Origin: an uncultured Dehalococcoidia bacterium
Lineage (GTDB): Bacteria > Chloroflexota > Dehalococcoidia > Lucifugimonadales > Lucifugimonadaceae
Assembly (NCBI GenBank): GCA_958295935.1
Contig: OY282385.1
Coordinates: forward strand, 2,459,545-2,523,544
Length of the DNA: 64,000 nucleotides
Direction: 5' to 3'
Shown: positions 44,867 to 61,008 of the stretch, piece after piece
Numbering within the stretch: position 1 is the first letter of the stretch
How the letters are laid out: every line of letters begins with the position of its first letter
Notes under the pieces: generated by a model
The model's database searches: none
The model's input: the letters and a program-made list of their open reading frames with translations, nothing else
Told to the model about the DNA's origin: nothing
Translations under genes and position numbers: made by a program

Positions 44867-46240
44867 GTGGAGTTTTTTGTGACTAGTTCCAGCCTTAGGG
44901 AGCTTCCAAGCGTTGAGCGGCTGCTTAGGGATGAGCGTTTGAGCGCGCTTGCCGGGGCTTATTCTCATTCTGCCGTGGTGCAGTTGGTGCGTGAGCGTTT
45001 GGATTGTGAGCGTTCTAAGGGTCTGAGTGGGAAGCCGGTATCGACGGCTGATGCGTTGGTAGAGGGCGTTTTGGCGCGTGCGCGTGCGGCGTGGTCGGTG
45101 TGGCCTGGGCGCGTAGTCAACGCTACCGGGGTGATCCTTCACACGAATCTGGGCCGTGCGCCGTTGAGTCTTGCGGCCGTCGATGCTGCGAAGGGTGCGG
45201 CTGCTGGTTATTCGAATCTGGAATTTGATCTTGAGAGGGGGGTACGGGGATCCAGGCAGGCGCGAATAGGCGAGTTGCTTGCGAGTGTGAGCGGCGCTGA
45301 GTCTGGCATTGCGGTTAATAACAACGCTTCTTCGGCGCTCCTCGTACTGAGCGCGCTGGCCTATGGCAGGGAGGTGGTCGTCTCGCGTGGAGAGTCGATC
45401 GAGATTGGCGGCGGCTTCCGCATTCCGGACGTCATGCGGCAGTCGGGTGCGCATCTGGTTGAAGTGGGTACGACCAACCGCACCTACGTTCGGGACTATG
45501 AAGCGGCGGTCACGGAGCGCACCGCGGTAATTCTGAAGGTTCACTTGAGCAATTTCACTATGTCCGGTTTCACCCATTCGGTGGACCTTGGGGATCTTGT
45601 GGAGTTGGGAAAATCCCGGGGTGTGCCGGTGGTGCACGACATGGGATCCGGATGCCTGCTGGATACTAGCCGCTACGGGATCAGCCATGAGCCGACGGTG
45701 CAGGAGAGCGTTGGTTGCGGAGCGAGTCTTACTATGTTTTCGGGGGACAAGCTTTTGGGGGGGCCTCAAGCGGGGATAATCGTCGGGGACGCGGAGCATG
45801 TCGGGTTGGCTTCTTCACACCCACTTGCGCGGGCTGTGCGTATGGACAAGATGGGACTGGCGGCGCTTGGGGCTACTCTCAGGACGTACATTCGCGGTCG
45901 GGCAGAGGCGGAGTTGCCGATCTGGCGGTCGATTTCGGTTTCCGCGGAGGAGATCGAGGGTCGCGCTATGGTCTGGAGAGCGGCGGTCGGGGAGGGGGAC
46001 GTGGTAGAGGCGCGGTCGGTGATAGGGGGCGGGAGCCTTCCGGGTCAGACGTTGCCTTCCTATGCTCTTGCGCTCTCTCCGTCGGTTGGTCCTGACAGTT
46101 TCAGCGCTGCGCTAAGGGGCTATGAGATACCTGTTGTGTCCCGCATCGAGGATGGCCGGGTGTGCCTCGACCCTCGCACGGTTGCGGAGGATGAGGACGT
46201 GTACGTGCTTAGCGCCCTGAGATCCGCCCTGGGGCGTTAG
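44867..46240 (+). CDS. selA: L-seryl-tRNA(Sec) selenium transferase
   Basis: 457 residues, standard length. SelA converts Ser-tRNA(Sec) to Sec-tRNA(Sec) using selenophosphate; its presence implies selenoprotein synthesis. N-terminal LRELPSVERLL, NATGVILHTNLGRAPL, SNLEFDLERGVRGSRQ, VVSRGESIEIGGGFRIPDVM, EVGTTNRT, and the PLP Lys in FSGDKLLGGPQAGII are all SelA signatures. GTG start at 44867 or 44879; TATAGT lies at 44847-44852. selB, selD and tRNA-Sec are not in the window. Its likely client is the UGA-containing gene at 57394-58776. Confidence 0.96.
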   Translation: MEFFVTSSSLRELPSVERLLRDERLSALAGAYSHSAVVQLVRERLDCERSKGLSGKPVSTADALVEGVLARARAAWSVWPGRVVNATGVILHTNLGRAPLSLAAVDAAKGAAAGYSNLEFDLERGVRGSRQARIGELLASVSGAESGIAVNNNASSALLVLSALAYGREVVVSRGESIEIGGGFRIPDVMRQSGAHLVEVGTTNRTYVRDYEAAVTERTAVILKVHLSNFTMSGFTHSVDLGDLVELGKSRGVPVVHDMGSGCLLDTSRYGISHEPTVQESVGCGASLTMFSGDKLLGGPQAGIIVGDAEHVGLASSHPLARAVRMDKMGLAALGATLRTYIRGRAEAELPIWRSISVSAEEIEGRAMVWRAAVGEGDVVEARSVIGGGSLPGQTLPSYALALSPSVGPDSFSAALRGYEIPVVSRIEDGRVCLDPRTVAEDEDVYVLSALRSALGR

Positions 46241-54195: not shown

Positions 54196-55104
54196 CTAGA
54201 TCTGCCGGAGCCTTGGATCCAGGCGGTCTCGTACCCAATCTCCGGCGAAGTTGAAGGCCATGACGACCAGAAAGATCGCGATGCCCGGGAACAGGGACAC
54301 CCACCATGCGGTGGCGAGGTAGGACCTTCCATCGGCTACGATGGATCCCCAACTGGGAGTTGGGGGAGGGACCCCCAGGCCGAGGAACGATAGGGTGCCC
54401 TCTGCCAGAATGAGCGAGCCTGCTTGCAGCGAGGTCAACACGAGGATTATCGAGATTGTGTGCGGGAGGATGTGCTTGATCATGATCCGTACGTCCGAGG
54501 CTCCTGCGACTCTGGCGAGCGCGACGTAATCGGCCTGTTTCAGGCTGAGCGTGAGTCCTCTCACCTGTCGCGTGAACCCTGCCCAGGTCGATGCGCCGAG
54601 GACGCCGACGAGAAGCGGGAAGCTTTGCCCGATCGCTACGACCAGCACGAGTACGATCATTATGAAGGGCACTGCGAGCCACACGTCGATGAGTCTCATG
54701 ATTATTTCATCGGACCACTTGCCGAAATATCCTGCCACCAAGCCAAGGGCGGTGCCTGCGATCATGCCTATCCATAGTGAAGCGGTGACGACGATGAGTG
54801 AGATTCTCGCTCCGTGGATCAGTCTGCTGAGCAGGTCTCGCCCTTGCTGGTCTGCACCCAGTAGGTTGGTCTGGGATCCCCCTTCCGCCCAAGCCGGTGG
54901 TGCGAGCCTGGAGAGCAGATTTGCGGAGTTTGGGCTGTGCGGTGAGATGAGGGGCGCGAATATGGCGACGACGACGAGGGTCACTATGACAAGAGCCGGG
55001 AGGATGGGCCAGCGCCTGAAGAATTGGAAGACTTTGACCACCCAATTTTGGGTTGGGGCTATGACGTCCTCGAAGTCTTTGGGCTGTATGGAGGTCTGGT
55101 CCAT
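54196..55104 (-). CDS. Oligopeptide/dipeptide-type ABC permease (DppC-like)
   Basis: 302 residues. N-terminal DppC-type helix (LPALVIVTLVVVAIFAPLI), NLLGADQQGRDLLSRLIHGARISL, five further membrane segments, and the EAA-like loop (ALARVAGASDVRIMIKHILPHT) that contacts the ATPase. It is 12 bases after the DppB-like gene. No ATPase genes (DppD/F type) are in the window, so the importer would need an ATPase encoded elsewhere. Confidence 0.93.
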   Translation of the reverse strand: MDQTSIQPKDFEDVIAPTQNWVVKVFQFFRRWPILPALVIVTLVVVAIFAPLISPHSPNSANLLSRLAPPAWAEGGSQTNLLGADQQGRDLLSRLIHGARISLIVVTASLWIGMIAGTALGLVAGYFGKWSDEIIMRLIDVWLAVPFIMIVLVLVVAIGQSFPLLVGVLGASTWAGFTRQVRGLTLSLKQADYVALARVAGASDVRIMIKHILPHTISIILVLTSLQAGSLILAEGTLSFLGLGVPPPTPSWGSIVADGRSYLATAWWVSLFPGIAIFLVVMAFNFAGDWVRDRLDPRLRQI

Positions 55105-55115
55105 CGGGATGGGGT

Positions 55116-56033
55116 CTATGAGAACTGTATTCTGGGGTCGATCAATGCGTAGCAGATGTCAACGAGGAAGTTGGCGGTTACGTATGCGAGAGTGGCAAAG
55201 AGGACGACGCCAGCTATCAAGGGGAAGTCGTTTTGGTTAACGGCTTCTATGGCGAGTCGTCCCAATCCAGGCCATGCGAATATATGCTCTACTACGATGG
55301 TTCCGGTCAAGAAGCTGGCCAGTAGCAAGAAGGTGAGTGTTATGGGGGGGATGAGTGAGTTGCGAAGTGCATATTTGTAGATGACCTTGGAGTTGCTTAC
55401 GCCCGATGCTCTGGCGAATTTGATGTACTCGGAATCGAGGACTTCGAGCATTGCTGAGCGCATGAGACGGAGTTGGGCGGCGCTGGTGGACCATCCGAGG
55501 ACGAATACGGGCATTATGAAGTGCGCCCATCCCTCTCTGCGGCCTGATGGCAGCCACTGTAGGTATTCGGCAAACAGCAGAATGAGGACGATGCCCAGCC
55601 AGAAGGCTGGAATGGCTTGGCCGAACAATGCGAACCCGCGCCCCAAATAGTCCATGACTGTTCCGCGTTTGACAGCGGACAGCACGCCGAGCGGCCAGCC
55701 CACGATGATCGAGAATATCCATGCGGCCGCTGCAAGTTGGAAAGTGGCCGGGATCCGCTCGGCTATAGATTCTGCAACAGGTCTGGATTCCCTCAGCGAT
55801 ATGCCCAGATCTCCTCTCAATGCGCCTCCCAGCCAAGTGAAGTACTGAACGTGTAGGGGGCGGTCCAGTCCCAGTATCACGCCGAGGTCGTCCCATTGCT
55901 CCTCAGTGGTGTACTCGCTGAGGTACATGTAACGCGGGTCTCCCTGCACTCGGGCAAGACCAAAGACGAGGATGGACACTACAAAGGCCACGAGGACCAT
56001 TGTGAATGCGCGGCGAATCAGGAAGGTGGTCAC
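55116..56033 (-). CDS. Oligopeptide/dipeptide-type ABC permease (DppB-like)
   Basis: 305 residues. Standard DppB start FLIRRAFTMVLVAFVVSILVF, the periplasmic LGLDRPLHVQYFTWL region and GDLGISL, six membrane segments, and EAA loop FARASGVSNSKVIYKYALRNSL. Lies 25 bases after the GrdE-like gene, so it appears to be in the same transcript as the selenoprotein pair. Confidence 0.93.
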   Translation of the reverse strand: MTTFLIRRAFTMVLVAFVVSILVFGLARVQGDPRYMYLSEYTTEEQWDDLGVILGLDRPLHVQYFTWLGGALRGDLGISLRESRPVAESIAERIPATFQLAAAAWIFSIIVGWPLGVLSAVKRGTVMDYLGRGFALFGQAIPAFWLGIVLILLFAEYLQWLPSGRREGWAHFIMPVFVLGWSTSAAQLRLMRSAMLEVLDSEYIKFARASGVSNSKVIYKYALRNSLIPPITLTFLLLASFLTGTIVVEHIFAWPGLGRLAIEAVNQNDFPLIAGVVLFATLAYVTANFLVDICYALIDPRIQFS

Positions 56034-56057: not shown

Positions 56058-57389
56058 TCAGTAATCTTCAAGGCTACGGTGGCCGAGTCCGTAGTAGTCC
56101 GGGACGTATGAGACTCCGTACCTGCCGTGCACGGGCGGCTGTTCGTCGTACCAGCGGCGGTCCGGTTCTCTGGCTCCAATGACCTTTTCCACCGGGGGGA
56201 ACGAGGAATCGAGTTCTCCGGCGCCTGAGCTTACTACGCTGGTCATTTCCGGAGCGGAGACGAGCAGCGGCGGTGCGGCTCCGTCCTCGTTGTCCTCCTC
56301 CTCGGTGAGGAGGGTCGCGGCTATGCCGGCCTGTTCGAGGGCCTGTACGGTGAGTATGGTTTCAAGGAATCTCTGTCCCCGGTAGTTGGTGGTAACTATA
56401 GCCCCGGAGGCGTTCAGGCGTTTCGCGAGCATGGCGGCCCGTTGCGCCATCAGCTCTTTTTCCGACTGTAGGGTCCAGTTGGTTCGCTGAACGATAAAGC
56501 CGAGGAAGTCGATGGTCTTGCCGTGCTTGCGGCAAAGTTCCATTGCCAACGGGCTGTTCGAGAGGTGCCATGTTTCCGGTCGGCCGTTGCCGTATGAGCC
56601 GAATATGGCGCCGTCGATAGTTTCCGAGGGGTAGAGGTGCCATGGTGCGGATAGTCTGGTTTGGCCATACACGGCGGGGCCTAGGGTGGAGCGGGATCCT
56701 GATGGGGCCTGCCATTCGGCCGATGCCAAGTGAGGGATGAAGACGACGCCGGGCAGAGAGTGGTGGTTGCTTTCGAAGTCAAACACTTCTGTTTCCGGAG
56801 GTGTAAGGGCGGTCATGGTTCCCGCTATCCGGTCGACGACTCGCAGGGCGGCTGAGTAGGCGGTTGTGTTTCTGTTTTCCAGATCAAGGGCTGGGTCGAT
56901 CTGAAGGGTGAGGCACACAAGTGAGAGTTCGTCATAGGGCGGGAGCTTGCCGGGGCCGAACACGTCGAGGAAGGGGCGGAAAGCCCGCGCTTTCGACTCA
57001 CCGTCGTCTTGGTGTGGTTGGCCGTGTCCTGAGCTGTTGCGCGGTTGATCCGCGGGGTTCGCTGTGTCCAGGCAAAGCATTACGGCAACGCCGCCCAGCC
57101 GGGAGGTTGCGCCGGAGCCGACCGTCGTCGCGGGTCGGTCGCAGACTGCGGGGTAAACGACGCCTGCTCCGCGGACTTTCACTTTCACCTCCAGGAGGTC
57201 CACAAAGTTGATTATCCGCAGCGGGTCGTCGGGTTGTGCGATTTCAATGGAAGCCCAGCGGACTCCAGGTTCGGACCGTGCGAGGCGTGACAACTCATCG
57301 CGGTCTAGTTCCAACCTCGGCCACTTGAGGTGGGTTTCCCGCGCGAACACGACCTCTTCGACGGGGAATGTTCCTAGCTCAAGTTTCAT
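56058..57389 (-). CDS. GrdE/GrdG/GrdI-like component of glycine/sarcosine/betaine reductase family
   Basis: 443 residues from ATG 57389, 4 bases after the selenoprotein stop; the longer frame to 57419 would overlap that gene. GrdE-type proteins are the substrate-binding partner of selenoprotein B and in classic systems are cleaved next to a Cys that becomes a pyruvoyl group. Recognisable blocks are the N-terminal LELGTFPVEEVVFA, YPSETIDGAIFGSY near residue 258, and LCRKHGKTIDFLGFIV then ASGAIVTTNYRG. In this protein there is no Cys between residues 159 and 286, where the classic processing site should fall, so pyruvoyl formation is doubtful. Function in this setting is unknown. Confidence 0.82.
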   Translation of the reverse strand: MKLELGTFPVEEVVFARETHLKWPRLELDRDELSRLARSEPGVRWASIEIAQPDDPLRIINFVDLLEVKVKVRGAGVVYPAVCDRPATTVGSGATSRLGGVAVMLCLDTANPADQPRNSSGHGQPHQDDGESKARAFRPFLDVFGPGKLPPYDELSLVCLTLQIDPALDLENRNTTAYSAALRVVDRIAGTMTALTPPETEVFDFESNHHSLPGVVFIPHLASAEWQAPSGSRSTLGPAVYGQTRLSAPWHLYPSETIDGAIFGSYGNGRPETWHLSNSPLAMELCRKHGKTIDFLGFIVQRTNWTLQSEKELMAQRAAMLAKRLNASGAIVTTNYRGQRFLETILTVQALEQAGIAATLLTEEEDNEDGAAPPLLVSAPEMTSVVSSGAGELDSSFPPVEKVIGAREPDRRWYDEQPPVHGRYGVSYVPDYYGLGHRSLEDY

Positions 57390-57393
57390 TTCG

Positions 57394-58776
57394 TCACGCG
57401 GTCGCGGTCGCTGAGGCAAAGAGCGTCGGCTCAGTCACGGTGGTGTTTATGGCCTCCAATGCTTTACGAATCATCTGGGTTGCGACCTGTGCGTCACTCT
57501 CAGGCGGTAGCCGCGGGTCGCCGCACACGTGCTCTACTCGCACTCCCCTTACGATTCGGCTGACTCCCGCTGCCAGGGGTATGGCGGGAATAGCGCTTAT
57601 GAGGGCCACGGTGATTCCGGCCTTTTCGAGCTCTTTGGAAATCGTTGCGCCGCAGCGATTGCAGCTTCCTCAGGTGGCGACCAGCAATGCGGCCTTGACT
57701 CCGCTGGCGGTGAACTCTTCGGCTATTTCCACGCCCATACGTCTGGCGCTGTTTACGGAGGTTCCGTTGCCCACGGTGGAGAAGAACTCGGGGTGGATCG
57801 ATTTGATACGGCCTTCGCGCTCCAATTTTCTGAGGGCTGGCAGAGGCAGCACGTAGTTTGGGCTTCTGGTGTTCAGGAAGACGGTATTGAATCCCCCGTG
57901 GACCGATTCCCATTCACTGACGCTCAGCTGCTTCAGCCCGCTTATGGAGTATCGAAAGGCCTTATCTGCGTAACCGGATACCTGGCCGTCGGGATTATCT
58001 TTCGGGACCAGACCTCCGCTAGTGACAAGGCCCAGCCTGGTTCGGGAGGCGTCTCGCGCCTTTGGAAGAACTGGCTGGTCCCGGTACTGGCGGGCGGATA
58101 CTTCAGATGCCCAGGGTGTTCCTGCCATACGCGCTTCCAGCACGTCTATTGCTCGTTCCCAGGCGGGCTTGCTCCGGCGGACGTGCTTCCTGAGTCCGGT
58201 TGGCATGTATCCCTCGGCTGCCGCGGGCCCCAGATTTTGTCCTCGAGCCAGTTTGAGGCCAATGGGAACCATCCGAATCAGGGTCTCTTGCACGTCCTTT
58301 GCGCTGGAACCGGTGGGCACGCATATGAGTTGGCGTGCGAAGGTGGTGTAACCGGGGTTGTCGGGGTGCATGCCGGTGACCGTGGGGATGTGCAGGCTTC
58401 TAGCGAGTTCGCTGATTTTGGCGCAGGCGTAGCCGTAGCGGCCGGCATCAAATGCGGGTCCGGCTATAACAAGGTCTGGCTTTATGCGTCGGAGGGCGGC
58501 GCTGACCTCCCCGATGGCGCGATCTTCTTCATCTGCGAAAAGGTTGTCCCCGCAGATGAGCGTGCCTGCCACTACGCCGTCGTTTCCGAGCGCGTTCTGC
58601 AGGGCTCTGCCTGGCCCAACGGGGCCGCGTCGGAACTCCGCGGGGGCATTGGCTTTGTCCTCGCCGCCAACTCCACCAAAGAACTGGTTGAGGTAGTGGA
58701 GGACGCGTATTGGTTCTTTCGTTGAAGCCTGCTGCATCGGGTTGAGCATGGGGCGGCCATGGTTATGGAGGAGCAT
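57394..58776 (-). CDS. GrdB/GrdF/GrdH-like selenoprotein, Sec at in-frame TGA
   Basis: About 460 residues when the TGA at 57672-57670 is read as selenocysteine; read as a stop it would leave a 368-residue protein and an orphan tail. The N-terminus (IRVLHYLNQFFGGVGGEDKA), then GTLICGDNLFADEE, DLVIAGPAFDAGRYG and LGLVTSGGLVPKDNPD, is of the protein B family. The TGA lies inside ALLVAT-U-GSCNRCGATI, the exact UGxCxRCGAT motif where GrdB holds selenocysteine; the sequence after it (KELEKAGITV, GDPRLPPESD) continues the family. Sec would be residue 369 in the 58776 numbering; the true start may be ATG 58749 or 58737. The reductively active selenol is expected to attack a C-N bond in an amine substrate. 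Confidence 0.9.
57640..57669 (-). promoter_or_regulatory. Putative bacterial SECIS hairpin after the Sec codon
   Basis: Just after the TGA the mRNA can form AATCG (57660-57656) with CGATT (57644-57640), then, past a C/A mismatch, TGC (57654-57652) with GCA (57648-57646), closing a GGC loop. The loop starts 18 bases after the TGA and has G in its first two positions, as required of bSECIS elements. Confidence 0.6.
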
Positions 58777-59067: not shown

Positions 59068-61008
59068 TCACCTCACGGGGATGGCTGTGTGGATCCAGTT
59101 GGGGTATGTGGTGGCTCCGGGTCCCAGCGCCCATTCGGCGATGCGCGGGCCGATTGGCCAGTACGTGTCCCAGGTTACGGTTCCTATAGCCCAATGGTTG
59201 TCCCACCACCACTGGTAGTAGGGTTGGAGGACCTGCCACTGTCGCTGTAGGTCTCCAATATCCCTACAGGCCAGGTAGTTTTCGGAGCTCTCATCGAACT
59301 CCATGACTGGGTTGAAGGAGTGCTGAACGCCTGGTGAATTGGGCAAGGAGCAGAGGTCTGTCACGTTACCCCATATGAAGGTGAAGACCAGATCCGATTC
59401 CCTTGCCAGCATTGCAGGCCGCAGAGCACTGTAGGCTGCCTTTGTAATTTCCACGGTCAGTCCGGAAGCCTCCCACATGGGGGCCAGGGCTTCCGAGATT
59501 TCCGCGTGGGTGGAAGCGAGGCCGCTGGGAATGGCGAGCTGGACGGTGGCATCTTCGGCGTTGGCATCCTGCAGGTACTGCTTGGCCATGTCGAGATCGA
59601 AGTCGTAGTCCCACTTGTCCTGGAAGAATGGGTTGCAGTTGTCCATCTTCATGATGATGTACTTGCAGCCGGTGCCCGAGAGGAAGACGTCGTTTATGGT
59701 CTCGCGGTCTATCGCGAGGGACATTGCCCAACGGAATTTCCTGGCCCGTTCCATGTCTGCGGGGTCGCTTGGGTCGCCTACCCACGGTCGGTGAGTGGCG
59801 GGAGGCGGCCTCTCAATGGGGTTTCCGTCCAGATCTTTCGTTGCATACAGGAGACCCTGGAACCAGACGTTTACGCCGCGCCTATTGGAGTTTTCGGAAG
59901 AGATCAGGCGTATGCCAGGGGTATTGGCGACTCTCTGAAGGTCAACGACTCCGACCTGTGCCATATCCGCTTCGCCTGTTTTCAGCATTGCGATGCGTGT
60001 GGCGGGTTCAGGCACTTCCAGGAAGCGGGCTGTCTGAAAGCCGGGGGTAAACCGCCAGTGTTCATCGAACGCCTCAAGTATCTTCTCGTTGTCCGGCACG
60101 TGCCTGACAACCTCGAATGGTCCGGTTCCTACGGCGTTCAGGATCGACCAATCTTCGCCGTTCTCGTCAAATGCGTTCTTGCTGATTATTCCTGCTGCGC
60201 TGGAGGTGGGCGGGCCTCGGAAGTCTCCGGGATTGCGTTTCAACTGGAAGCGGACGTTGTACCCATCAATTGCGGTTATGCCGTCTCGTGTGTAGATCTG
60301 GTCCAGCGAGCCGAATGCGGTGTGCTTGGTACCTTCTCTCATGAGGTCCTGAATGGACCAGACGACATCCTGTGAGGTCATCTCTCCGTAGCCCTTGTGG
60401 AACTGGATGCCCTGTCGGAGCCTGACGTCGAGGTAATAGTCGTCGCCCTGTCTGTTGATCTCCCAGAAGTCGGCGAGTTCGTTTTCCTGTGTCCAGTTGT
60501 CCAGTGCGACGCGCGTGAGTCCCTCTAGGATTCCGGTACTCCATGCGTAGTCGTTGTGCGGCCAAGACATGGCGAAGTTTGTGTATAGGGGCGTTCCTAC
60601 GTCCTCGACGACTACGGTGAGGATTCCGGATGGAGTGCGCAGGTCTGTTCTTGGCGTGGGGGTGGCGACGACGATTTCCTTTTCGGTGACCACTACGGTC
60701 TCGACGACTCGCTCTGTAACAGGCACTTGCCTCTCAACGATCACTGTCTCGACGACCTTGACAGTCTCGCCTTGGACCTGTCTCTCGACCACAACCGTCT
60801 CGACCACCTTCTCAGTACGTGTAACCTCCTTTTCGACGACGACCGTCTCAATAACTCTTTCGGTGACCGGCCTTTCAACTATTACAGTCTCGACCACTCT
60901 TTCCGTCACCGTTTCCGTACCGCCGCAGGCCGCTGCCAGTGCGGCGACCAGGATGCTGACGACCAGAATAGCCATGCTGCCCAAGAGGGTTCGCTTGTGT
61001 GTTTGCAT
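59068..61008 (-). CDS. Oligopeptide-type ABC solute-binding lipoprotein (family 5)
   Basis: 646 residues. Lipobox LAAAC (Cys28), then an unusual repeated linker (residues about 31-118) of TERVVETVIVERPV-like units, followed by family 5 domains: GILEGLTRVAL, LRQGIQFHKGYGEMTSQDVVWSIQDLM, VGTGPFEVVRHVPDNEKI and FRWAMSLAIDRETINDVFLSGTG. It is the first gene of the run with the selenoprotein, GrdE-like protein and two permeases, so it probably captures the substrate that these proteins process. Confidence 0.93.
   Translation of the reverse strand: MQTHKRTLLGSMAILVVSILVAALAAACGGTETVTERVVETVIVERPVTERVIETVVVEKEVTRTEKVVETVVVERQVQGETVKVVETVIVERQVPVTERVVETVVVTEKEIVVATPTPRTDLRTPSGILTVVVEDVGTPLYTNFAMSWPHNDYAWSTGILEGLTRVALDNWTQENELADFWEINRQGDDYYLDVRLRQGIQFHKGYGEMTSQDVVWSIQDLMREGTKHTAFGSLDQIYTRDGITAIDGYNVRFQLKRNPGDFRGPPTSSAAGIISKNAFDENGEDWSILNAVGTGPFEVVRHVPDNEKILEAFDEHWRFTPGFQTARFLEVPEPATRIAMLKTGEADMAQVGVVDLQRVANTPGIRLISSENSNRRGVNVWFQGLLYATKDLDGNPIERPPPATHRPWVGDPSDPADMERARKFRWAMSLAIDRETINDVFLSGTGCKYIIMKMDNCNPFFQDKWDYDFDLDMAKQYLQDANAEDATVQLAIPSGLASTHAEISEALAPMWEASGLTVEITKAAYSALRPAMLARESDLVFTFIWGNVTDLCSLPNSPGVQHSFNPVMEFDESSENYLACRDIGDLQRQWQVLQPYYQWWWDNHWAIGTVTWDTYWPIGPRIAEWALGPGATTYPNWIHTAIPVR
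60660..60918 (-). repeat. ETVVVE-type repeat linker in the solute-binding protein
   Basis: About eight imperfect 10-13-residue units built on VVETVVVEKEV. Alternating Val and charged residues suggest an extended or beta-like spacer between the lipid anchor and the binding domain. Such linkers are common in Chloroflexota solute-binding proteins. Confidence 0.75.

Follow-up and report, generated by a model that had tools for sequence, protein, structure and literature searches.

The question raised by this locus is whether a minus-strand reading frame interrupted by a single TGA encodes one intact selenoprotein and, if so, what reaction a protein of the glycine reductase type would support in this genome. 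Within the 64,000-nucleotide stretch of DNA analysed here (the window), which comes from a Dehalococcoidia-type Chloroflexota, the frame at 57394-58776 runs up to its terminal TGA at 57396-57394 with a single interruption, the TGA at 57672-57670; the span and the inner TGA lie where the original prediction placed them. Counted from the ATG at 58776 the in-frame TGA is codon 369; gene calling under table 11 cuts the product to 368 aa (57670-58776), the truncation that had been anticipated, and the catalytic tail of such proteins is lost under standard gene calling. The residues beyond the TGA read GSCNRCGATISKELEKAG. Homology begins near residue 23, which makes the ATG at 58737 (M14) the probable true start in place of that at 58776.

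The joined product resembles the Sec-containing large subunit of protein B (GrdB) over its whole length. It matches TIGR01918 with 361.5 bits (cut-off 65.45, E 6.5e-108) over positions 1-430 of 431 in an alignment that spans the TGA, and Pfam GRDB (PF07355) with 368.2 bits, the Pfam match stopping at Sec. Read as selenocysteine, the codon at 57670-57672 (minus strand) lies in a UGSCNRCG motif, and the site (UGSCNRC) fits the UxxCxxC pattern. Among 118 GrdB-family frames, taken from this genome, from others of its order and from loci in public species genomes, the homologous codon is TGA in 117 and TGT in one. The expectation that homologues would show neither Cys nor a normal stop at this position agrees with the 117 TGA codons and fails for the lone Cys form, on a Bathyarchaeota contig (L080:206-1570, plus strand) that has a GrdC gene nearby.

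The part of the gene that follows the TGA is constrained as a protein. In comparisons among the five paralogues of this genome the post-TGA part (89-99 codons) retains 55-79% amino-acid identity vs 43-55% for the part before it, after the TGA changes at third codon positions outnumber those at second positions two- to sixfold, and second positions are the least divergent. Because of this identity and the slow second positions, the tail is at least as constrained as the pre-TGA part, and by these codon comparisons it is under purifying selection; together with the alignment that crosses the codon, this upholds the earlier claim that the residues past the TGA continue the protein. The AlphaFold model has a mean pLDDT of 91.7 with the post-Sec part included; almost the whole tail lies at about 92-97. 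Sec is placed just ahead of a helix, an arrangement also found at redox CxxC sites.

The genome also carries the machinery for selenocysteine insertion. The selA gene (L-seryl-tRNA(Sec) selenium transferase), which was said to lie in the window, is found at 44867-46240 on the plus strand (TIGR00474 516 bits, cut-off 267.9), and a search of the genome for selB, selD and tRNA-Sec recovered all three, so that SelA, SelB, SelD and tRNA-Sec are all present and the missing machinery that would have spoken against the original prediction was not encountered. The tRNA-Sec has a TCA anticodon and lies 11.6 kb beyond the window. The selD gene has an in-frame TGA as well, its product being another predicted selenoprotein (L033:1329-2333, plus strand; genome contig 970798-971724). 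The reading of the TGA as an ordinary stop, or of the frame as decaying with the tail as a relic, agrees with the point at which standard gene calling ends; set against a TGA shared at this codon by 117 of the 118 relatives, tail constraint matching that of the rest of the protein, the complete Sec machinery and the confident predicted fold through the tail, it is extremely improbable, and as an ordinary stop or pseudogene it is ruled out by the conservation of the TGA codon.

A SECIS-like hairpin lies at 57641-57659 (minus strand), with an apical-loop GGC 19-21 nt past the UGA and one C.A mismatch in the stem. Among the relatives, the wobble bases required by the helix are strongly enriched over expectations from the same genes, an excess inflated by the shared ancestry of the 35 clade members: Arg is CGU in 33/35 (4.4 expected), Thr is ACG in 34/34 (11.3 expected), Ala is GCA or GCG in 35/35 (17.0 expected) and Asn is AAU in 23/31 (7.1 expected). 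The window copy and one paralogue (L032) have CGC, giving the C.A mismatch, and the window hairpin retains 7 of 8 pairs. In single-sequence RNA folding the minimum-energy fold of the window copy alone was no better than that of shuffled sequences, and the SECIS argument therefore rests on the wobble statistics of the relatives. These make the predicted hairpin well supported in the clade, and it is plausible that it works as a SECIS in the window copy. Homology, TGA conservation, selection on the tail, the Sec machinery and the clade hairpin agree with the original proposal of a single selenoprotein whose Sec occupies the GrdB UxxCxxC site, and these sequence comparisons confirm the TGA at 57672-57670 as the predicted Sec codon of one intact GrdB-family selenoprotein. 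By itself this Sec assignment is ordinary for the GrdB family.

The grdB-like gene (57394-58776) belongs to a minus-strand row, SBP5-grdB-grdE-oppB-oppC (61008-54196), that is probably one operon. Upstream lies a family-5 (peptide/nickel type) ABC substrate-binding lipoprotein (59068-61008; PF00496 150.6 bits, no NCBIfam equivalog cut-off reached), and 4 nt past the grdB stop is the ATG (57389) of a grdE/grdG-like partner (56058-57389; PF09338 184 bits). An OppB/NikB-type permease (55116-56033; PF00528, PF19300; NF045470 312 bits, below the cut-off of 350) and an OppC/NikC-type permease (54196-55104; PF00528, PF12911; best NCBIfam match below its cut-off) follow, and within the window neither permease was seen to have an adjacent ATPase gene. 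An importer of the peptide/nickel type does not identify the substrate.

Alignment of the joined protein with GrdB, GrdF and GrdH, which had been proposed as a check, gave a GrdB-family match from end to end, while the cut-offs of the models for the known substrates were all missed: glycine reductase (TIGR01917, 327 bits vs 602), sarcosine reductase (NF040794, 395 bits vs 800, the best single NCBIfam score) and betaine reductase (NF040795, 355 bits vs 775). The published glycine motif of GrdB (PMC9751293) and the sarcosine motif of GrdF are both absent; against AHGGxD/RV[IL]PxD and IHGGYDR/TTGTGT the window protein has SVHGGFN..SPNYVLPLP, in which SPNYVLPLP stands where canonical GrdB has its conserved D-x-x-RV-x-P-x-D stretch. 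A PDB sequence search with the window protein found no relative. None of the PDB structures matched by Foldseek had an E value under 1e-3, and global TM reached only about 0.2; structure thus gave no help on the substrate.

The partner subunit differs from its canonical counterpart at the site of cofactor formation. Work on C. sticklandii and C. difficile shows that GrdE cleaves itself and that one of its Cys residues then turns into an N-terminal pyruvoyl group (PMC9908766); from its given position (GrdE residue 242) and the family we read this residue as the Cys of GNC. Canonical (clostridial) GrdE reads DGAIVSGNCVSACDKN, containing GNC; in the motif alignment the window partner reads DGAIFGSYGNGRPETW and has no GNC. 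The motif occurs in none of the six GrdE-like proteins of the genome and is missing from every GrdE of the Chloroflexota loci examined, as well as from those of Entotheonella, Rokubacteria, Burkholderiales and several deltaproteobacterial loci. The pyruvoyl-site trait requires two changes on the GrdB tree, where the window GrdB falls in a 34-row clade (SH-aLRT 99) that contains no pyruvoyl type. There is precedent for such partners in GrdI (betaine) and FarE (fluoroacetate), which lack the pyruvoyl cysteines, and the Ser of STUG has been suggested as an alternative carbonyl source (PMC10838667); the window GrdB has ATUG where STUG is discussed. For an enzyme that lacks a carbonyl cofactor, the simplest guess is a substrate that has no free amine.

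Two assignments to known enzymes bear on these observations. The protein could be the protein B of a true glycine (or sarcosine) reductase, using the clostridial Stickland mechanism to yield acetyl phosphate; membership of the same family, the retained UxxCxxC, the presence of GrdA and GrdC and the top NCBIfam score for the sarcosine model (395 bits) point that way, yet with scores far under the glycine, sarcosine and betaine cut-offs, both published motifs failed, the pyruvoyl site absent and no GrdD found, we regard it as improbable. Somewhat less so, though still rather unlikely, is a functional equivalent of GrdHI or FarBE, a pyruvoyl-independent protein B that resembles betaine or fluoroacetate reductase and acts on substrates whose leaving group is a quaternary ammonium or a halide. 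GrdI and FarE share the lack of pyruvoyl cysteines, a Halanaerobium betaine protein B (GrdH above its cut-off) pairs with a partner without GNC, and the FarE model (NF053623) ranks second among the NCBIfam matches of the window partner. That match is only 69.9 bits vs a cut-off of 675, however, the GrdH cut-off is likewise far off, the window protein lies outside the GrdH branch of the tree and keeps UxxCxxC while FarB is reported without CxxC, the importer is a peptide/nickel-type ABC system and not a betaine carrier, and GrdD is missing. Taken as a statement of how the enzyme works, this assignment is compatible with the explanation that we favor below.

The absence of a detectable GrdD sets the system further apart. 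Across a set of 16 Chloroflexota and Entotheonella genomes (the window's own, 13 more of its order, Entotheonella and another Chloroflexota), GrdC is above its cut-off in all 16 and GrdD in none, and the profile search gave no GrdD match in the window's genome; both proteins are found in 5/5 canonical-type genomes (Parendozoicomonas and four Firmicutes/Halanaerobium). When aligned with four Firmicutes/Halanaerobium GrdC, four GrdC from GrdD-less genomes lack the C-terminal tail of the former (about 30-40 residues) and retain FC..P.HA and TQGH. GrdC shows a weak match to beta-ketoacyl-ACP synthase III, and comparison of the grdC neighbourhoods found no conserved gene next to grdC that would replace GrdD. 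A GrdD too divergent for the profile, with acetyl phosphate made as usual, might account for the absence, which rests on one profile that a very divergent protein could escape and on several genomes that are MAGs of 66-96% completeness; the count of 0/16 for GrdD vs 16/16 for GrdC, a profile sensitive enough to give remote sub-cut-off matches in several genomes and the missing GrdC tail in the four compared make that explanation unlikely. In work on E. acidaminophilum, GrdD reportedly carries the thiol that serves the final step in making acetyl phosphate, and without GrdD another acetyl acceptor would be needed. A COX1-type heme-copper oxidase is present in 15/16 GrdD-less genomes vs 1/5 canonical-type genomes, and sponge Chloroflexi are called aerobic in published reconstructions (PMC6306507). 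The COX1 genes show potential, not a reductase working in air.

Elsewhere in the genome (2.75 Mb, one contig), examined one family at a time and by reading selected stretches, further Grd components are found. Including the window gene there are five Sec-GrdB paralogues; a GrdE-like gene lies beside each of the other four, and SBP5, OppB and OppC are near 4/5 grdB loci. One cluster holds the single GrdC (586.9 bits, cut-off 450), the single Sec-containing GrdA (CFVU motif; 187.5 bits, cut-off 130) and, near grdA, a double-Sec ferredoxin-thioredoxin reductase (FtrB_double_U, NF041072; 224 bits, cut-off 160), all above their NCBIfam cut-offs. The reductase gene (L030:9072-9506, minus strand, about 559 kb on the contig; CPU..CPC..CIU) lies between grdA and a grdE-like gene (L030:7728-9065, minus strand) that has no adjacent grdB and sits next to an SBP5/Opp set; an orphan partner and a shared subunit are candidate readings of the latter. 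Double-Sec FtrB is above its cut-off in 8/16 GrdD-less vs 0/5 canonical genomes. While the FtrB_double_U family is already known from an ocean survey (PMC2398784), its link to grd genes, by co-location in one genome and co-occurrence in 8/16 GrdD-less genomes, is new here.

The GrdB trait is patchy, as no full-length GrdB was found among the other listed genomes of the window's own family. Many sister genomes of the family and order show short partial PF07355 matches, to the C-terminal half only, in open frames mostly of about 155-300 aa; these are probably smaller UGSC/PrdB-like proteins, which are abundant in ocean surveys. A second Chloroflexota GrdB type (L145-L155, L158) has UGTSTRSG, with Ser replacing the motif cysteines, and its partners also lack a pyruvoyl site.

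We consider it probable that the window encodes a GrdB-type selenoprotein acting as a pyruvoyl-independent protein B with its own importer, which feeds a shared GrdA and GrdC without GrdD, perhaps toward acetyl-CoA. The Opp/Nik-type importer would bring in the substrate, which we infer to be of the class X-CH2-COO(-) with a good leaving group X, and the Sec of GrdB would attack it without a pyruvoyl or Schiff-base step. The Sec of the single GrdA would then take over the carboxymethyl group, which would end up as an acetyl thioester on the Cys of GrdC, with electrons putatively supplied by the double-Sec ferredoxin-thioredoxin reductase encoded near grdA. Because no GrdD was found, release would not be as acetyl phosphate; the acetyl group would go to another acceptor, most simply CoA, which is chemically plausible in view of the weak match of GrdC to beta-ketoacyl-ACP synthase III.

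The known role of glycine-type reductases is in Stickland fermentation, which is anaerobic and yields acetyl phosphate. A pyruvoyl-less, GrdD-less branch in oxidase-bearing genomes would mean that the Sec and carboxymethyl chemistry has been turned to a different use. Judged from the genes, a protein B without the pyruvoyl site, the lack of any detectable GrdD, a shortened GrdC and hosts that bear oxidases make up a coherent variant. No description of this combination was found in the literature searched, nor any paper joining SAR202 with a selenoprotein or with glycine reductase; glycine reductases have been reported in anaerobic Dehalococcoidia of serpentinite springs, a different setting (PMC9751293). 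More tentatively, there may be a second, widespread form of glycine reductase in oxidase-bearing Chloroflexota and an Entotheonella genome, without pyruvoyl or GrdD, in which GrdC would yield acetyl-CoA directly and paralogous protein B modules would each have an importer for a different carboxymethyl compound. This form, if true, would be a Sec-dependent route of carbon acquisition and not a fermentation energy pathway. Since most protein B genes here sit near their own binding protein, the substrate question becomes testable.

Finally, the window system can be compared with the characterized reductases. Like clostridial GrdB/GrdE (TIGR01917, PF07355/PF09338) it has Sec in UxxCxxCG, a paired GrdE-type subunit, and GrdA (Sec) and GrdC in the genome; unlike them it lacks the GNC site, the glycine motif and GrdD, its type of GrdC is without the C-terminal tail, and its grdBE genes are paired with an Opp-type importer. 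With betaine GrdH/GrdI (NF040795) and fluoroacetate FarB/FarE (NF053623) it shares the pyruvoyl-less partner and Sec in the large subunit, whereas its scores fall below the cut-offs of both and its branch is separate from GrdH. The GrdH-bearing Halanaerobium genome has GrdD while the window genome has none detectable, and the window GrdB keeps the CxxC that FarB is reported to lack.
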